32,076 nt of DNA from Planctomycetota bacterium (GTDB lineage Bacteria; Planctomycetota; UBA11346), in assembly GCA_013696105.1 (NCBI GenBank), contig JACCZE010000388.1, forward strand, positions 1 through 32,076. The letters are read 5' to 3'. The position numbers and the translations under genes were made by a program. The notes below the pieces were generated by a model. That model was given only the letters and a program-made list of their open reading frames with translations. It was not told where the DNA came from and did not search any database. Position 1 is the first letter of the stretch; the number at the start of each line of letters is the position of its first letter. Positions 5,146-26,465 of the stretch are shown here, piece after piece.

Positions 5146-7056
5146 TCAACGACGCGGGCGACGCACAGCGATCAGGCCAAGCGTCAGCAGGCACGCTGCG
5201 AGGCCGGATCCGGATCCGCAATCGTCGCCAGCAGGCGAGATGGGATTCGGCTCGACGCTCTTGGACAGCACCGGAAACGCCAGGCTCGCACCAGCCAGGG
5301 AGGCACGCCCGCCGATGTCCACGGCCGCGCCCGCCGGCAGGTCGACGGTCACCAGCGTGCTGCCAGCGGGGGCCGTGACGAGCATCTGGTAGGCGGGGCC
5401 GCTGCCCACCAGGGCCCCGGCGACCGCGCCGCCGCCGAGGACGACGTCGGAGGCGGTGAAGCCGGTGACGCTCTCGGTGAAGAGGAAGCGCAGCAGGATC
5501 GAGCCTCCGGGCGCGATCGACGTCGCGGAGGCGAGGATGGTCGGGACTGGTGCCTTGCGATCGCTCTTCACCGTGCGCGAGAAGGCGAGGTTGCCGTTGA
5601 GGGCGGCGTCGCGGGCCGCGTCCGCGGGGATCGAGAGCACCACGTCGCCGTCGTCCGTGGGAGTGACAGGGACGGTATAGGTGGTGCCGCTGCCGGTGAC
5701 CGCCCCGACGGTGCCGTTGGTCGCGGTGAGCGCGCCCGCAGGGAAGCCGGTGACAGTCTCATTGAAGGTGATGAGGAAGAGGATCGGGTCGGCGCCCGTT
5801 ATCGCGCCAGCCGCGGGCGTGGCGGTGATGGTGGGCTTGGTGGTGTCGTAGGTCACGGTCGCGGTGGCCGGGGTGCTGGGATTGCTCGATGAGTCGATCG
5901 CCGCGCCATTCGCGACATCGACCGTCACCCCACCCTGGGCGCTGGCGGTCACAGGCAGGGTGTACGTCGTGCCCGAACCGCTCAGCGCTCCCGCCGAGCC
6001 GTTGGTGAGTGTGATGTCCGATGCGGTGAATCCGGTCACGGCGCGATCGAAGGCGAAGGTGAAGACGATCGCGGCGGTGGATTGGAAGGTACCGGATGGC
6101 GTGATCGACAGCACCGGCTGCGTCGTGCTGTAGGTCACCGTGGCCGATGATCCGGCGCTCGCGTTACCGGCAGCGTCGTGCACTACCGCGGCAGGAACGG
6201 AAACGCCGACCGCCCCTGTGGTGACGGGGGCCACTTGCAGGGTGTAGCTCGCACCGGAACCAGCGAACGCGCCCTTGGTGCCGTTGGTGACGGTCACGTT
6301 CGCAGCGGTGAAGTCGACGACGGCTTCATTGAAGGTGAAGGTGAAAGCGATCGGCGTCACGCCGGTGGTCGTCCCGTTGGGCGTGATGACGAGCGTGGGC
6401 ACGGCGGAATCGAAGGTGACGCTCGCTGTGGGCGCGGCGGTGTTCGGCGCTCCCAGGCCATCGAAAGCGGCGCCGGCAGCGACGTTGACGGTCACGGCGC
6501 CTTGCGCGCTGGGCGTGATCTCGAGGGTGTAGATGTCAGCGCCCGGCGATACGCTCGCGAACGCTGCGGCCTTGGTGCCATTGCCGACCGTCACGTCATT
6601 GACGGTGAAGCCGCTGACCGTCTCGCTGAAGGTGAAGGTGAACACCATCGGCGAGACGTTGCTCGACGTCCCGGTGGGGGTGATGGCGAGGGCGGGCGGC
6701 AGGTTGTAGGTCACCGAACCGCTGCCAGCGAGGTTGTCCTCGGCGGTGCTGTTCTGCGCGGCGCCGGCAGGGATGGTGAGCGTCACGGCTCCCTGGCTGC
6801 TTGGGATCACCGTGATGGAGTAGGTGGTTCCGCTTCCCGAGAAGGTGTCGAGGCTGCCGTTGCTCGCCACCGCGTCGGCGAGCACGAAGCCGGTGACCGC
6901 CTGCGAGAAGGTGACGGTGAACGAGATCGGATTCGAGGTCGTCGAACCGCTGTTCGGCGTCACCGTCACCGTCGGTTGGGCTGCCCAAGCCGGTGCGCAG
7001 AGGAGCGCCAGCAACCAGGCGAGGATCGGGAACGATGGGCGGCGGTGGGAGCGCAT
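5146..7056 (-). CDS. Secreted protein with six Ig-like repeats and a CTERM-like sorting tail
   Basis: A 636-aa protein. Residues 1-22 are a signal peptide ending in AWA. Six repeats of about 95 aa follow, each with a PxxxxTP start, an FTFTF-x-xxVTGF core, a SGSGTTYT-like turn and an IPAGAA-like close, as in bacterial Ig-like domains found in adhesins and surface proteins (Big_12-like). The C-terminus reads DDCGSGSG, about 12 hydrophobic residues, then RRPRR: the layout of a C-terminal sorting signal (motif, membrane helix, basic end) of the GlyGly-CTERM / Synerg-CTERM kind. The ATG at 7056 is chosen because the signal peptide starts there and GAGGT lies about 10 bases upstream. It follows the beta-barrel gene by 43 bp and is probably co-transcribed. 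Likely surface-exposed. Confidence 0.85.
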   Translation of the reverse strand: MRSHRRPSFPILAWLLALLCAPAWAAQPTVTVTPNSGSTTSNPISFTVTFSQAVTGFVLADAVASNGSLDTFSGSGTTYSITVIPSSQGAVTLTIPAGAAQNSTAEDNLAGSGSVTYNLPPALAITPTGTSSNVSPMVFTFTFSETVSGFTVNDVTVGNGTKAAAFASVSPGADIYTLEITPSAQGAVTVNVAAGAAFDGLGAPNTAAPTASVTFDSAVPTLVITPNGTTTGVTPIAFTFTFNEAVVDFTAANVTVTNGTKGAFAGSGASYTLQVAPVTTGAVGVSVPAAVVHDAAGNASAGSSATVTYSTTQPVLSITPSGTFQSTAAIVFTFAFDRAVTGFTASDITLTNGSAGALSGSGTTYTLPVTASAQGGVTVDVANGAAIDSSSNPSTPATATVTYDTTKPTITATPAAGAITGADPILFLITFNETVTGFPAGALTATNGTVGAVTGSGTTYTVPVTPTDDGDVVLSIPADAARDAALNGNLAFSRTVKSDRKAPVPTILASATSIAPGGSILLRFLFTESVTGFTASDVVLGGGAVAGALVGSGPAYQMLVTAPAGSTLVTVDLPAGAAVDIGGRASLAGASLAFPVLSKSVEPNPISPAGDDCGSGSGLAACLLTLGLIAVRRPRR

Positions 7057-20421: not shown

Positions 20422-21219
20422 CTACTCCATGTCGTTCATGGCGCACAGGGCATCGACCAGCCCAGCCATCGGTTCGACCGCCGCCGATAGCAGCAGGGCT
20501 CCGGCCACGACATAGACGATCCCCGAGAGGATGCGCACCATGTGGCGTCGGGACCGCACGGCCGCGGAAGCGTGATAATCGGCGAGCTGGCGACAGTGGT
20601 GCTCGGCCTCGGGGTGACGGAGCACCGTCCCGAGTCCCGCCGCGTCGGATCCCAGCACGGGAATCAGCTCGGACTCCGGCAGCCGCCAGCGGGCGACCAG
20701 CGCGGCACGTTCGAATCGCTGGGATTGCGACATATGGTAGCCGAGACTGGCGAGCGACGGCAGCCAGCGCGCGGCATAGGGAGACTGCGACAGCCACACC
20801 ACCGCTGCGCCGACGATGAGCACGCCGATCCCCACGATCAGCCAGGGCGCGGCGAATCCGTGACCCGAAACGCGGAGGATCACCACCACCGCCACGACGA
20901 CGCCGATCATGGTCAGGAGCGGATGGGCGATGGCATCGATCCAGGCGAGACGCGCGGCGCGGTCCAGGCGCAGACGTTCGGCGGTGAGCAATGCGCTGCG
21001 CTCCAGGGAGGGACGGGGGCCCCGCAGCGCAGCCCGGAGCTCATCGGGGAGATGGCCGGACAAAGCGCTCGCGACGTCCTTGCCCGCATCAAGCTCGTCG
21101 GCGATCATCTTACCCAGGGCGCCGCATTGGGCGCGCAGATCGGGACCCAGCGGCCGCCGCTCCAGAGCCGAGGCGGCGATGGTGCGGAGGATGCATTCGA
21201 TGTCCGCAGCGTGGCTCAT
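20422..21219 (-). CDS. GspF-like membrane protein, third copy
   Basis: A 265-aa protein, last of the nine-gene operon. The N-terminal 85 residues, with CILRTIAASALERRPLG and a later GKDVASALSGHLPDE stretch, follow the pattern of a T2SSF domain. Two membrane helices lie at about 98-145 and one near the C-terminus (about 232-250). GspF/PilC normally carries two T2SSF domains and about 400 aa; this has one, so it looks like half a platform protein. Its ATG at 21219 overlaps the stop of the gene before by ATGA. Its assignment rests on pattern and context more than on strong motifs. Confidence 0.6.
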   Translation of the reverse strand: MSHAADIECILRTIAASALERRPLGPDLRAQCGALGKMIADELDAGKDVASALSGHLPDELRAALRGPRPSLERSALLTAERLRLDRAARLAWIDAIAHPLLTMIGVVVAVVVILRVSGHGFAAPWLIVGIGVLIVGAAVVWLSQSPYAARWLPSLASLGYHMSQSQRFERAALVARWRLPESELIPVLGSDAAGLGTVLRHPEAEHHCRQLADYHASAAVRSRRHMVRILSGIVYVVAGALLLSAAVEPMAGLVDALCAMNDME

Positions 21220-21545
21220 CGTCGGGTTCCCTTGGGGATCCAGCTTTCACGGCCGTCCGCCGAGATGCGGTAGGTTCCACGAGGCCCGCTCGCCGTCCGC
21301 TCGTTACCGGTCGCGCGCGTCACATTCCACGCACCAGAGGTCACCTGCGCGCCTTCTGCCAGGGTCGATGCCCCGATGCACCATTCGCGACCTTGGACGC
21401 GCGCCGCCCGATCCGATACCTCCACCCGGCGCAGGGCACCCTGCGCGGCGATGGTGATGCCGACGATCATCGCGGCCCCGGTGATGATGAAGATCACCGC
21501 GGTGATGACCATCCCCTGCCGATTCATCGATCGCTTCATGGACAT
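21216..21545 (-). CDS. Pseudopilin-like protein, GspK-like
   Basis: A 109-aa protein. A basic leader (MSMKRSMNRQG) is followed by a hydrophobic helix starting MVITAVIFIITG, the layout of a prepilin-peptidase substrate cut after Gly11. Residue +5 is Ala, not Glu, as in GspK-type minor pseudopilins, but it is far shorter than GspK. The soluble part of about 70 aa holds a Trp-rich strand pattern. The start at 21545 follows GAGGTG; the alternative ATG at 21539 would give a 4-base ATGA overlap with the gene before, as elsewhere in this operon. It probably sits at or near a pseudopilus tip; this is inference. Confidence 0.65.
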   Translation of the reverse strand: MSMKRSMNRQGMVITAVIFIITGAAMIVGITIAAQGALRRVEVSDRAARVQGREWCIGASTLAEGAQVTSGAWNVTRATGNERTASGPRGTYRISADGRESWIPKGTRR

Positions 21546-21904
21546 GCGCGCACCTCGCGTCGGGGCAGTCCGACCGGCTGCAGGACCACCTGGATCGTCC
21601 TGCCGTCGCTCGTCCACTCCGCGCTCTGGACATGGCAGGTGCGCACGGCGCCGCGCATCAGTCTGCCCTCCACGACGCGCCAGCGGACCCCGCCGGCCAC
21701 CAGGTCGCCGCCATGGATCCGCCCCCCTCTTTCGAGGTCGCGACGCAGCCGATCGCATGCCAGGTCGATGATCCGCGCCGGCTGCGCCTCTGCGCGGGCA
21801 TACTTGGAGATCTGGTTCAATGCCGTTGCGCCAAGCTCCAATACGAAGGCGACCATCGCAATCGAGATCGCCATCTCCAGGAGGGTCATGCCGCGCCTGA
21901 TCAT
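21536..21904 (-). CDS. Pseudopilin with type IV prepilin signal, GspJ-like
   Basis: A 122-aa protein beginning MIRRG then MTLLEMAIS, a textbook type IV prepilin signal: cleavage after Gly5, methylatable Met, Glu at +5. The hydrophobic helix runs to about residue 27. The soluble part (residues about 40-122) includes LACDRLRRDLERGGRI, like the early helix of GspJ/PilW-type minor pseudopilins. It should be processed by a prepilin peptidase encoded elsewhere. The start ATG overlaps the stop of the gene before by ATGA. This is the clearest pseudopilin in the operon. Confidence 0.8.
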   Translation of the reverse strand: MIRRGMTLLEMAISIAMVAFVLELGATALNQISKYARAEAQPARIIDLACDRLRRDLERGGRIHGGDLVAGGVRWRVVEGRLMRGAVRTCHVQSAEWTSDGRTIQVVLQPVGLPRREVRACP

Positions 21905-22218
21905 GGCTCGTCCCGCGATGTGATCAGGGTAGCGAGAGAGACCTGTTCGGACCTGACGCGTAATTCGACCACCCCATCCGCGAGCATACGACGGGACCAC
22001 GTCCATCCCGCACGCTCCGGAAGCGTCCCCTCGCCGAGACGCAGCCTGAGACGTGCCTCATTCAGCAGATTCTGAGCGACATCGAGCTCGGAGGAACGGG
22101 CCTCCTCCCGCTGTCGGCCGCGATTCTGTGCAGCGGCTTCGGTCACCGTAGCCAGGATCAATCCGCAGGCGGCGAGGGACGCCACGACATCGACGGTGAG
22201 GGTTCCGCGTCGTCTCAT
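21901..22218 (-). CDS. Pseudopilin-like protein, GspI-like, Asp at +5
   Basis: A 105-aa protein starting MRRRG then TLTVDVVASLAACGLILAT. This fits a prepilin signal cut after Gly5, except that +5 is Asp where Glu is nearly universal. The helix ends near residue 28, followed by QNLLNEARLRLR, a pattern like the N-terminal helix of GspI/PilV proteins. It is joined by ATGA overlaps to the GspF-like gene before and the GspJ-like gene after. The Asp is a conservative swap that could alter pilin assembly order. Confidence 0.7.
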   Translation of the reverse strand: MRRRGTLTVDVVASLAACGLILATVTEAAAQNRGRQREEARSSELDVAQNLLNEARLRLRLGEGTLPERAGWTWSRRMLADGVVELRVRSEQVSLATLITSRDEP

Positions 22219-23195
22219 GATAGGTTCTCGAGGGAGTTGATGATCGAGATGAGGAGACCGAATACCGCTCGCCCCAGCAGGAGGACGGGGATCGCCAGCA
22301 GCAGCGGTGCGACGATCTCGAAGACCGCCATCAGCACCACTCCATGCCGATCACTGCGCTCACGACTCGAAGCCAGCGCGATCGCCAGGGCATCCGCGTC
22401 CGCGACCTTCCAACCGGCAGCATGACAGATGGAGGTGAGTGACGCGTTGGCGCGGGGTACACCCAGGGCGGCGGCGATCGCATCCTCCGGCACTCCGCTG
22501 CGCACCGCGCTGAGGATGATCTCCCCGCGCAGGATCCTGCGTCCCATCACCCAGCGCCAGCGCGACCACAGCGAGACCAGCACGATGACGATGATGATGA
22601 GCGTCAATCCGGCCCAGGGACCCGCCAGGATCTGCAGCCACGCCCACGCACCGACGCCGGTGAAGTCCAGATCGATCTCCCGCGCCATCAGCTCGAACTT
22701 CGGTGCGATGAAGACGCTGAAGAACATCATGACGAGGACGATGGCGGCGATGGTCAGCAGCACGGGCGCTATCCGGCGACCGATCGAGACGCGCACCCTC
22801 GGGGGGACCGACACCGATCTGAACCAATGCTCGAGCACCGTGGGGCCGAGCCGTTCTGCTGATTTCGCCAGGGGTACCATCGTGGCGGGCAGCAGCCTGC
22901 CGATCTCCAGGGCCTCGACGGTGGTGATGGGCCGGTTCGCGCGCAGGGCATCGGCCGCCTTCTGGAGACGCCGGGGATAGGGCCACGGCAGGAGCGGGCG
23001 CAGGCCCTCGAGGGCGAGCTCGATCGCTTGCACGCGATGCATGGACTCCGCGATGCGGCCCGCCACCAGACGAACCGCCTCTGCGGCCGGACCGGCCATG
23101 AACGCGCGCATCACCGCCCACACCGCGTTGACCACGCACACCACCCCGACCGGGACCAAAGTAAGCAGCATCAGAAAGGCCAGCGTATCTTTCAT
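22215..23195 (-). CDS. GspF-like inner-membrane platform protein, second copy
   Basis: A 326-aa protein with a hydrophobic N-terminus (3-30), membrane segments near 145-165 and 190-212, and a C-terminal one (about 291-318) in FEIVAPLLLAIPVLLLG, which recalls the end of GspF/PilC. The region after 215 has RILRGEIILSAVRSGVPEDA, close to the T2SSF helix pattern that in this family sets up the platform contact with the ATPase. Together with the gene before, it may make up a split platform. Both junctions are ATGA overlaps. Confidence 0.7.
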   Translation of the reverse strand: MKDTLAFLMLLTLVPVGVVCVVNAVWAVMRAFMAGPAAEAVRLVAGRIAESMHRVQAIELALEGLRPLLPWPYPRRLQKAADALRANRPITTVEALEIGRLLPATMVPLAKSAERLGPTVLEHWFRSVSVPPRVRVSIGRRIAPVLLTIAAIVLVMMFFSVFIAPKFELMAREIDLDFTGVGAWAWLQILAGPWAGLTLIIIVIVLVSLWSRWRWVMGRRILRGEIILSAVRSGVPEDAIAAALGVPRANASLTSICHAAGWKVADADALAIALASSRERSDRHGVVLMAVFEIVAPLLLAIPVLLLGRAVFGLLISIINSLENLS

Positions 23196-24199
23196 AGATA
23201 GCTCGCCACCCGGATCAGCGGAGCGAGCACGCTCATCGCCATGCCCATGAAGCCGGTCCAGACCGTCAGGAGCAGCACGGGGCGGACCAGCAGGTAGGAG
23301 GACGAGAGCGCATCATCCAGCCGCTCGCGGCACAGCGTCTCTGCTGCGTCCCAATCGGGTCGACCCCGATCGCTGTCCACGATGCCGAGCAGCGTCAGCC
23401 GGCTCGCGAGATCGCGGCGCTGGGCAGACTGCTTCCGGAGGTCGGGGGACAGGCGCCACCGCGTGAGGAACATCCACGTCCGCCAATCGCGATCCCACAC
23501 GGGCTGGTTAGGCCGCCAGGCGCCGACGCCGACCCGAGCCAAGGCCGAGCGGAGCGGATCCAGCCGCACCGGTGCGTCATCGCCCAGGCGGGCGTGCTGG
23601 ATCAGGCGCAACAACGCGACCTGGCGATCGACTTCCGGGCACCAGAAATGGGTGAGGTGGCGCAAGCCTCGCACACCACGCACCGCCGCGTCGCCAGCCG
23701 TGATGGCCAGCAGCATCGCCCCCAGCAGCAAGGCGCTCGCGAGCGGCTGGTGGCTCAACCTGCCGATGCTTCCGACGGTGATCCCGAGTTGATCCGTGGC
23801 GTAGTGCAGATCCATCCCATTGGCGGCGAGCAGCAGACACCAGGCGGTCGCAGGCAGGGCGAACGCCAACGCACAACTGACGGGCAGATGCCTGACCCAC
23901 CAGATTCCGCGCGGCGGCGACGCGGCGGCGCTCGCTATGCGATCCAGGGCGGCGACGAAATCCGCATCAGCGGCCAGGATGCGCGTCTCGTGGCGTGACA
24001 GCAGTCGGGCCCGGCGCAGGACATCGGGGGCCGGAGTTCCGGAGCGCAACGCGGGAGCCAGCCGGGACGCCCACCGCGACAGGTGCGGGTCTCCGGCGGT
24101 CAGGCTCACCAAGCCGTCGGCGAGCGGCTCCCGGGCTCGAGCGACCAGCGCGACCGCGGCCAGGATATCCGCGCGATGAGGATGCAGGAAGACGCTCAT
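23192..24199 (-). CDS. GspF-like inner-membrane platform protein, first copy
   Basis: A 335-aa protein. Residues about 7-85 look like a T2SSF domain: a helix with VALVARAREPLADGLVSL, then ALRSGTPAPDVLRRA and a closing AADADFVAAL, the order of the usual platform-protein domain. Membrane helices lie near 100-125 and 148-165, and another at the C-terminus (about 305-330). It directly follows the GspE ATPase gene, where GspF normally stands. The ATG at 24199 overlaps the GspE stop by ATGA, which fixes the start. In known systems this protein anchors the ATPase and lifts pilins out of the membrane. Confidence 0.75.
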   Translation of the reverse strand: MSVFLHPHRADILAAVALVARAREPLADGLVSLTAGDPHLSRWASRLAPALRSGTPAPDVLRRARLLSRHETRILAADADFVAALDRIASAAASPPRGIWWVRHLPVSCALAFALPATAWCLLLAANGMDLHYATDQLGITVGSIGRLSHQPLASALLLGAMLLAITAGDAAVRGVRGLRHLTHFWCPEVDRQVALLRLIQHARLGDDAPVRLDPLRSALARVGVGAWRPNQPVWDRDWRTWMFLTRWRLSPDLRKQSAQRRDLASRLTLLGIVDSDRGRPDWDAAETLCRERLDDALSSSYLLVRPVLLLTVWTGFMGMAMSVLAPLIRVASYL

Positions 24200-25239
24200 C
24201 CGAGCACCCGGTCGAGTTCGTCGGTGGTCGTCACGCCCTGGGAGACCAACTCGGCGGCCTGCCGGTCGAGATCCGCGAACAGGGGCGCATCCACGCCGCG
24301 TCGCAGGAGCGCGCGAGAATCCTGATCCACCAGCAGGAGGTCGGCGATCGCCTGGCGTCCGCTGAAACCACCGGTGCATGCGGCGCATCCCTCGGCGCGG
24401 CATGCCAAATGGCGACGGCGCACCAGACGCTGCGCGAGGACCGCGCTCAGCGCAGGCAGGAGGAGGTCGGCATCGACTCCCATCTCGATCAATCTCGGCA
24501 CGACCTCGGCCGCCCGGCCGGCATGGACCGTGGTCAAGACCAGATGACCGGTGAGTGCGGCGCGCACGCAGGCGAGCGCGGTGCCGGGATCGCGCACCTC
24601 TCCGACCACGATGACATCCGGGTCGTGCCGCAACGCCGCGGTCAGCGCGTCGCAGAAGCCGAAACCCCTGGGGATCGCAACTTCGATCTGAGTGACACCA
24701 GCCACTCGGCGTTCGACCGGATCCTCGATGGTCAGCACGTGGCGGTCAGGCCGCTGCTGGGCCAGCTCGGCGAGGATGCTGTGCAGCGTAGTGGTCTTTC
24801 CCGAACCCGTCGGCCCAGCGACCACGATCAGACCATCGGGGCGCCGTGCGAGAGCGCGCAGCGCTGAGACCACCCCATCGGGCAAGCCCAGACCGTCTGG
24901 AGTCGGCAGCTGCCCGATGGCTGGAAGGCGGATGGCCGCACGCTGTCCGCGGACCGTCGGCAGGAAGGATGCGCGCAGGTCGCCGCTCATGCCCAAGGCG
25001 CGCCCGTCGATGCGCCCATCCTGGGCCTCGTCGGTGATGTAGGCGGGAAGGCCGGCCAGTGACTTCAGGCGTGCGATGGCGACGACGGCGTCTCCAGGAG
25101 GGATCCGACCGATCACCGAGCGTACACCATCGATGCGCGCCATCGCTACCAGCGCCGAACCGTCATCGGGCTCCAATGCGAAATCGCTGGCCCCCAGAGC
25201 TTCGGCGCGGCGGAGCATCCCTTCCAGGATCACGGTCAT
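24196..25239 (-). CDS. GspE/PilB-type secretion ATPase, short form
   Basis: A 347-aa hexameric-type ATPase that should power pseudopilus assembly. Walker A GPTGSGKT (142-149), Asp box LTIEDPVE (about 169-176), Walker B VIVVGEVRDP (about 209-218) and His box TGHLVLTTVHAG (230-241) are all intact. The zinc loop is reduced: Cys280, Cys285 and Cys288 instead of the usual four Cys. The N-terminal domain that binds GspL or PilM is missing, since GspE is usually about 500 aa, so docking must differ. The retained middle domain resembles the N2 domain. It is the third gene of the operon and overlaps both neighbours by ATGA. Confidence 0.93.
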   Translation of the reverse strand: MTVILEGMLRRAEALGASDFALEPDDGSALVAMARIDGVRSVIGRIPPGDAVVAIARLKSLAGLPAYITDEAQDGRIDGRALGMSGDLRASFLPTVRGQRAAIRLPAIGQLPTPDGLGLPDGVVSALRALARRPDGLIVVAGPTGSGKTTTLHSILAELAQQRPDRHVLTIEDPVERRVAGVTQIEVAIPRGFGFCDALTAALRHDPDVIVVGEVRDPGTALACVRAALTGHLVLTTVHAGRAAEVVPRLIEMGVDADLLLPALSAVLAQRLVRRRHLACRAEGCAACTGGFSGRQAIADLLLVDQDSRALLRRGVDAPLFADLDRQAAELVSQGVTTTDELDRVLG

Positions 25240-25736
25240 TCGACGCTCCTGCGCTGCAGGAATGCGGCGATGCGGAGATCCAGCGCTCGAGGCACGCGCT
25301 CGGCATCGACGTTCTCAGCGTTCTCAGCGACCGGGGCCATCGGCATCCGCTCCGCGACCGAGCGCACCGTCAGCATCATGAGGCTCACCAGCAGCAGCGC
25401 GGCGGCCGACATGCCGCCGATCTCCCAGACCAGCGACTTGGCTGCCCGTATCGCCCGCGTGCGCTCATGCCGGATCTTGGACATCACCCGTTCGGTGTAC
25501 GCGAGCGCATCCTGTTCCGCCCGATGGCGCTGCCACATGCCGGCGATGAACGGTTCGCACCGGCGCTCCGGAGCGACCACCTGGGATGCGACCTCGCTGA
25601 TGATCAGGTGCTGCCGCATCAGCCGCAGGAGCCTGGGATCCTCGTCGATGGCCCGGAGGAGCCTCGCGATGTCAGCCGAGTCGGGATGGCCGTCGAGTAC
25701 GAGGGAGATCAGCTCTTCGGGAGTCTGGGCGGTCAT
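25236..25736 (-). CDS. FecR/anti-sigma-like membrane protein
   Basis: A 166-aa protein. Residues about 4-50, including LVLDGHPDSADIARLLRAIDEDPRLLRLMRQHL, follow the helical N-terminal pattern of planctomycete FecR-like anti-sigma proteins (a short helix, then 'D..L..L..HL'). One membrane helix lies at about 108-126, and a short periplasmic tail of about 40 aa replaces the FecR domain. The ATG at 25736 overlaps the sigma-factor stop by ATGA; a GTG at 25742 is an alternative. Position directly after an ECF sigma factor supports an anti-sigma role. There is no HxxxCxxC zinc motif. Confidence 0.65.
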   Translation of the reverse strand: MTAQTPEELISLVLDGHPDSADIARLLRAIDEDPRLLRLMRQHLIISEVASQVVAPERRCEPFIAGMWQRHRAEQDALAYTERVMSKIRHERTRAIRAAKSLVWEIGGMSAAALLLVSLMMLTVRSVAERMPMAPVAENAENVDAERVPRALDLRIAAFLQRRSVE

Positions 25737-26272
25737 GGCCACGCCTCTTTGCCGATACGGCCTTCGACGCAGCGGCGGAGGACCTCGCGCACCCGGAACA
25801 GCGCCTGACGCACCGCGTTGCCCGCGCGGCCGAGGTCCGCCCCCATCGCGTCGGAGTCCAGATCCTCCTCGTAGCGGAGGCGGACCAGCTCGCGGCTGTG
25901 CGCCGGGAGATCATCGATGCACAACCGCAAGGCCGTGTGCGTTTCCCTCAGCGACATCGAGCTGGGCTGCGTGTCATCGATCGCCCGGGCGAGCAGCTCG
26001 GCGACATCACGCCGGATCAGCCGGCTCCGCCTGCCTTCCTTGCGCCGCTCGTTCGCCACGACGTTGCGCGCGATGCCGCGCAGCCAGGTGAGGAATTCTC
26101 GCTCGGGATCGTAGGCCGCGAAGTTCCGGTACGCGATGAGGAAGACCTCCTGCGAGACGTCATCCACCCACATGGGATGGATCCCGAGCATGCGGACGAA
26201 CGTCCGCAGCACCGCCTGGTGCTCGGCGACCAGGGTCGAGAATGCGCTGTCCGGGTCTTCGGAGTGGTCCAT
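25733..26272 (-). CDS. ECF-type RNA polymerase sigma factor
   Basis: A 179-aa sigma-70 family protein of ECF size. Region 2 (about residues 10-75) has VDDVSQEVFLIAYRNF and FLTWLRGIARNVVANERRK. Region 4 (about 115-175) has LPAHSRELVRLRYEEDL followed by the helix-turn-helix around GRAGNAVRQALFRVREVLRR. The pattern matches the planctomycete-enriched ECF group that sits with FecR-like proteins. It is the first gene of the operon, so it may direct transcription of its own operon. The upstream 193 bp is shared with divergent mnmG. The ATG at 26272 gives the normal length; the longer upstream frame is not supported. Confidence 0.93.
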   Translation of the reverse strand: MDHSEDPDSAFSTLVAEHQAVLRTFVRMLGIHPMWVDDVSQEVFLIAYRNFAAYDPEREFLTWLRGIARNVVANERRKEGRRSRLIRRDVAELLARAIDDTQPSSMSLRETHTALRLCIDDLPAHSRELVRLRYEEDLDSDAMGADLGRAGNAVRQALFRVREVLRRCVEGRIGKEAWP

Positions 26273-26465
26273 CTGCCCTGCTTTGTCGCCAGGTCCCCAT
26301 CCGTTACGAGGAGATATCCCGGGGGCGCTCCCGCACGGACCTCGTCCGACCGTCATCATATGGCCAGGGTCGACGTAATGCCCTGTTACTGCCCGAGGAT
26401 CGGTTGGAGGGGCCGGGGCTCGCCGTCGCTGGCCCGGCATCCCCTGGCTGCATACTCTGCGGCCC

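Follow-up and report, generated by a model that had tools for sequence, protein, structure and literature searches.

A planctomycete operon that joins an ECF sigma factor to the genes of a putative small type IV filament motor

Survey models of type IV filaments, even in their most general form, call for an ATPase, a platform protein, and a major pilin (PMC6668835). PulF, the GspF-type platform protein of a T2SS, forms a homotrimer (PMC10790770), and TadB and TadC of the Tad pilus have one T2SSF domain each, which was explained by gene fission (PMC6668835). In the tip complexes of T2SS, T4aP, and Com systems, the last minor pilin has no Glu5 (PMC10790768). Sigma factors are implicated in the control of two such machines: ComX controls the minimal Com pilus (PMC10790768), and the ECF sigma factor VreI of P. 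aeruginosa is encoded directly upstream of the Hxc T2SS genes that it controls (PMC2729926). Because of these cases, VreI in particular, the statement in a preliminary description of the present locus that known T2SS and pilus loci carry no leading sigma factor was too strong.

The window analyzed here, i.e., the whole stretch of 32,076 nucleotides, comes from a Planctomycetota metagenome-assembled genome (G000; 79% complete, 4.3 Mb). We are highly confident that one of its operons encodes a filament-type motor. A search of the literature on Planctomycetota T2SS, pili, and ECF factors, with most subscription papers outside its scope, returned no title on this gene set.

Layout and products of the operon

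The operon consists of nine open frames on the minus strand, from position 26272 down to 20422, in the order sigma, R, E, F1, F2, I, J, K, and F3 (Table 1). All eight junctions are ATGA overlaps, the one between J and K using the ATG at 21539; at least seven had been counted before, and the nine-gene operon first proposed was confirmed by the open frames and their overlaps. It is flanked on the sigma side by a divergent mnmG and at the other end by an FMN reductase gene preceded by a 6-phosphogluconate dehydrogenase gene. Five of the genes allowed a comparison with a second genome of the same genus (G001); their dN/dS values were about 0.14 (sigma), 0.34 (R), 0.10 (E), 0.24 (K), and 0.30 (F3), revealing purifying selection on these genes between the two species. 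The eight overlaps, the matching flanks in G001, and these dN/dS values show that the reading frames are real and selected. Scans for sigma-70 promoters and terminators found nothing, and no neighbors consistently pointing to a substrate were found. Elsewhere in the window (5146-7056, minus strand), a 636-aa protein carries six Big_12 Ig-like domains.

Table 1. Features of the operon, listed in the direction of reading
Feature	Coordinates	Strand	Basis
Promoter-like element GTAAC-N14-CGACAAAG, 27 bp, 8 bp before the sigma ATG	26281..26307	-	conservation
ECF sigma factor, Rhodopirellula/Verrucomicrobium (gvs1) family	25733..26272	-	TIGR02989; Pfam Sigma70_r2 + r4_2
R, membrane anti-sigma factor, FecR-type N-terminus without FecR domain	25236..25736	-	R-profile search; no Pfam hit
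E, short GspE/PilB-type ATPase without N-terminal docking region	24196..25239	-	PF00437
F1, GspF/PilC-like platform	23192..24199	-	hhalign
F2, GspF/PilC-like platform	22215..23195	-	hhalign
I, GspI-like minor prepilin, site RRRG|TLTVD	21901..22218	-	position + cleavage site
J, GspJ-like minor prepilin, site IRRG|MTLLE	21536..21904	-	TIGR02532
K, GspK-like minor pilin without Glu5	21216..21539	-	architecture + position
F3, third GspF-like platform, second half shortened, this class only	20422..21219	-	hhalign

The sigma factor matched TIGR02989 with 145.9 bits, above the curated cut-off of 124.55, and is the best match to this family in G000, a genome in which 38 matches were found. R had no Pfam match at an E value of ≤1, and the FecR domain (PF04773) was not detected in it. 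A search of six genomes with a profile of R returned the three orthologs first and then weaker stretches. The six best nonorthologous matches sit directly behind TIGR02989-type sigma genes, and the four such proteins that were scanned have a FecR domain after residue ~136. Since the matches are FecR-domain proteins encoded behind sigma genes of this type, R is the anti-sigma portion found at the N-terminus of FecR proteins, followed by a single membrane segment and lacking the periplasmic FecR domain, and is of the type cognate to TIGR02989-type sigma factors. The earlier label "FecR-like" thus holds for the anti-sigma part and not for the domain after which it is named. At least one FecR protein behind a TIGR02989 sigma gene in G000 has a CBM_11 domain.

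The element upstream of the sigma gene is common to G000, G001, and G021, a genome of another genus of the family, with its spacing kept and at 8 to 10 bp from the ATG; the surrounding intergenic DNA has diverged. The exact GTAAC pattern with GCGACAAAG was found a single time in each of G000 and G021 (a reversed-pattern control gave no match), G001 has a one-base variant in the same place, and every copy in the fetched loci lies at the site before the sigma gene. We also considered that the sigma factor drives other modules of G000, and rejected this in the absence of a second copy of the pattern. The element would fit an autoregulated ECF promoter with a very short leader. The spacers of ECF promoters are usually 16 to 17 nt long; the spacer of 14 nt is shorter, and the second half of the element could belong to the ribosome-binding site, which is why we only infer a promoter role.

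The ATPase E (347 residues) matched PF00437 with 231.7 bits. Its match to TIGR02533 begins only at profile position 113 of 486, so that E lacks the N-terminal region with which GspE docks GspL, as had been noticed in the first reading. In a phylogenetic tree, the short E proteins form their own clade (support of 100/99), apart from GspE, PilB, and PilT, and a test for extension ATPases placed E on the GspE/PilB side, away from PilT. E is also found without any F module, e.g., behind protein-kinase-like genes in G003 and G019, and may therefore serve more than one partner. In both of these genomes (G019, L041 7957-10760; G003, L043 5387-8112), the end of a Ser/Thr-kinase-like gene and the short E gene share 4 bases; F3 was not found in either. 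In G005 (L045 6619-11660), a lone short E gene lies between CinA-like and ComF-like genes, names linked to competence that were read from the sequence. A search for E in contigs of named genomes returned only the same-genus contig JACDEN010000182.1 (Planctomycetota bacterium isolate MGR_bin361) and a distant Curvibacter locus.

The platform proteins F1 and F2 had no Pfam match at an E value of ≤1, and F3 had only weak, unrelated ones. With hhalign, alignments of the orthologs of each F protein were set against an alignment of seven GspF/PilC sequences, giving E values that refer to single pairs and not to a database: 6.4e-12 for F1 (321 columns), 3.8e-17 for F2, and 1.3e-9 for F3 (253 columns). 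In a control search of each F profile against a set of 35 membrane proteins, taken from the fetched loci and including relatives, the orthologs ranked first, and nearly all top matches below them were F paralogs and GspF/PilC proteins. Moreover, the F1 profile matches PilC genes in relatives, and F2 has a weak ComGB match. In all nine F3 sequences, a [Y/H]P motif lies at the start of or before TM1, the same position as the Tyr-Pro in TMS1 of GspF homologs (PMC10790770). The predicted model of F3 (pLDDT of 82) had no significant match to the PDB by Foldseek, and this assignment therefore rests on the profile comparison. The description of three GspF-like proteins is thus sustained by profile-profile comparison with its control, while a direct Pfam search fails to recover it.

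Conserved cleavage sites support the identification of I and J as prepilins. For I, both position and cleavage site are conserved in related loci, where residue 5 is glutamate (aspartate in the window), and its counterpart in G048, a genome of another family of the phylum, matches XpsI at 5.4e-6. J passes TIGR02532 narrowly (17.0 bits, with a cut-off of 16.3) and has the glycine at -1 and Glu5 in all seven loci with a clear start. K lacks Glu5 in the nine sequences that we looked at, like the last minor pilins of known tip complexes. Its AlphaFold model (pLDDT of 86) consists of one 54-residue helix followed by a five-strand sheet, the predicted lollipop layout of a pilin. Foldseek found no significant fold match to it in the PDB, so the call rests on architecture and position. 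The GspI-, GspJ-, and GspK-like calls of the preliminary description are retained on these grounds, even though neither I nor K has a Pfam match at an E value of ≤1. Of the profile searches that it proposed, those for sigma and E passed clearly and that for J barely, and R, F1, F2, I, and K remained without a Pfam match.

Related modules and parts encoded elsewhere

All nine genes occur in the same order in G021 (L042). G001 has the two ends of the operon on separate contigs whose flanks match those of the window operon: in L040, sigma, R, and E are next to a minus-strand gene as large as mnmG, and in L096, K and F3 are next to the genes for the dehydrogenase and the reductase. The gene order is therefore kept in relatives, as had been anticipated. 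Other modules are reduced. In G017 (L046), the set is E-F1-F2-I-J-K-F3, without sigma or R, and three genomes (G000:C209, G009:C36, and G014:C116) carry F1-F2-I-J-K-F3 without E. Two further modules, G000:C102 (L039 3470-7523) and G014:C75 (L099 6796-9545), consist of a fused F1-F2 and F3 with no pilin genes nearby, the former with a divergent E; pilins may therefore not be essential. The sigma pair heads three of the nine modules (the window operon and those of G021 and G001), which confirms the leading sigma factor for these genomes and places the pair outside the core machine. In the tree of F1, F2, and F3, the sigma-bearing modules group together (support of 84/97), which is consistent with one gain of the sigma/R pair.

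F3 was found in 6 of the 23 genomes of the class, and in a sample of 392 Planctomycetota genomes no score above 22 bits was obtained outside the class. E and F3 modules occur together in five genomes (E in 8 and F3 in 6 of the 23; P = 0.009, with phylogeny ignored). Related six-gene sets occur in two other families of the phylum, as E-Fa-Fb-I-J-K in G048, where Pfam recognizes the F proteins, and as E-I-Fa-Fb-J-K in G023; no secretin, GspG, or F3 was found inside these two clusters. G058 has E-F-F, and in G041 (L048 7952-16560) a short E gene is convergent with a cluster that comprises three T2SSF genes, a DUF4350-like gene, and genes of an ABC transporter. An ABC gene also lies behind the E-I-F-F-J-K set of G023 (L047). 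These related clusters in other families and the clade of short E proteins point to a lineage of small filament motors in the Planctomycetota, of which the window operon is the most elaborate member seen.

None of the nine genes encodes GspC, D, G, H, L, M, or O, and profile searches with Pfam and TIGR models found no ComGC-like major pilin among them. Secretins are absent from the window operon and from the related modules read, and neither GspD nor GspG adjoins any of these modules. The lack of secretin, GspC/L/M, GspG, and prepilin peptidase genes in the operon was thus described correctly at the outset. The hint of a self-contained machine found no support; a prepilin peptidase and secretins are encoded elsewhere in the genome. 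One A24 peptidase gene (PF01478) was detected in G000, on contig C351, outside the operon, and it is plausible that this enzyme is supplied in trans. G000 also has five secretin genes, and every module-bearing genome checked has secretins, often as tandem arrays, which are possible pore partners for the module. Arrays of two to three consecutive secretin-domain genes, of ~760 to 870 aa each, were seen in L108 7777-15139 (G000:C162), L113, L114, L116, and L117, and those of G000 and G001 sit behind a PilM-like gene. GspG (PF08334) was not found in G000, which is 79% complete; overall, four of the six class genomes checked, all of them incomplete, gave no match. It is present in G001 and in G009, the latter with a separate cluster of GspE, GspF, and GspG (L057).

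Possible mechanism and alternative readings

We favor, as probable though well short of certain, a distinct Planctomycetota branch of type IV filaments: a small inner-membrane pilus motor with its own switch and a peptidase acting in trans. R would keep the sigma factor at the membrane until a signal is received, and the freed sigma factor would transcribe the operon that encodes it, using the element 8 bp upstream of its ATG. I, J, and K would be inserted as prepilins, and the A24 peptidase encoded elsewhere would cleave I and J, and perhaps K as well. The three might then form a tip complex, with K, which has no Glu5, as its cap. A hexamer of E would drive a platform to which the three different GspF-like proteins F1, F2, and F3 all contribute, perhaps as a 1:1:1 heterotrimer that replaces the usual homotrimer; a heterotrimer is the simplest guess, since PulF is a homotrimer (PMC10790770). 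The motor would extend a short pseudopilus, whose major pilin and any outer-membrane pore would come from other loci or not be used. Such a pseudopilus might serve secretion, surface display, or DNA uptake.

The operon could also be the motor half of an ordinary T2SS with scattered genes, in which secretin, GspG, and inner-membrane partners are encoded elsewhere and the whole secretes proteins. The five secretin genes and the A24 peptidase gene of G000 agree with this, as do the secretins of every module-bearing genome checked, two beside a PilM-like gene, and the GspG genes of G001 and G009. However, E has no GspL-docking region and falls outside the GspE clade, G009 has its GspE, GspF, and GspG in a separate cluster, and GspG is missing from most of the class genomes checked, incomplete as they are, so we regard a scattered T2SS as unlikely. 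Quite unlikely, in our estimation, is a pseudopilus for DNA uptake like that of Com, with a dedicated sigma switch acting as ComX does for comG. The Com pilus, under ComX, is the closest minimal secretin-less filament, weak ComGB and ComGF matches were obtained, and the short E gene of G005 lies between the CinA-like and ComF-like genes. Against this, neighbors differ at other loci, the operon has no ComGC-like major pilin, and a diderm would still need a pore; ComEC does not discriminate, because it is present in 18 of the 23 class genomes with or without the module.

That the operon is a decaying, functionless remnant of a T2SS is extremely improbable. Parts of it are missing or divergent and some relatives lack E or the pilins, but the frames and junctions are intact, the order is the same in two genera, the upstream element is conserved, and decay was rejected on the dN/dS values of 0.10 to 0.34.

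Within the favored reading of a distinct filament branch, a bolder version is doubtful: a motor that needs neither major pilin nor secretin although its host is a diderm, has one heterotrimer of three different GspF proteins as its platform, and is built only on release of its own sigma factor. If it were true, the pilin-less version in G000 (E, F1F2, and F3) would be a second machine, a motor that does not build a filament. 

Whichever reading holds, gene sets like the window operon could be missed by surveys of type IV filaments, since they have no major pilin gene and their platforms escape Pfam. An operon with three distinct platform proteins, in contrast to the homotrimer of PulF (PMC10790770), offers a natural test of how a platform works, as the three positions could be altered one at a time. 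Its sigma/anti-sigma pair is a simple handle for switching the machine on and asking what it does.

Comparison with known systems

The Com pilus of monoderms (ComGA-GG and ComC) shares with the window operon a short ATPase, a platform, and small minor pilins in one operon without a secretin, as well as a last minor pilin without Glu5 and control by a dedicated sigma factor (PMC10790768). It differs in having a single platform protein, ComGB, where the window operon has three of platform type, and in encoding the major pilin ComGC, for which the window operon has no counterpart. The latter has the sigma and anti-sigma genes inside the operon, and its host is a diderm. With the T2SS it shares E, F, and the minor pseudopilin order I-J-K. 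The T2SS has GspC, D, G, H, L, M, and O, all absent here, whereas F is tripled; GspE of the T2SS docks GspL, in contrast to the phylogenetically separate E of the window.

In the Hxc/VreA-VreI-VreR system, an ECF sigma factor and its regulator also adjoin and control T2SS genes (PMC2729926). Hxc is a conventional T2SS downstream of a cell-surface-signaling locus, whereas the sigma gene of the window is the first of an overlapping operon. The Tad pilus likewise has more than one GspF-like platform protein per machine (TadB/TadC); compared with these, F1 and F2 come close to full length, and a third protein, F3, is added. The Planctomycetota pairs of TIGR02989 sigma factors and FecR anti-sigma factors have the same sigma family and the same anti-sigma N-terminus, but carry FecR, LamG, or CBM periplasmic domains, of which R has none. 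In the papers searched, no system combines three platform proteins, the lack of a major pilin gene, and a sigma pair inside one overlapping operon, as the window operon does.
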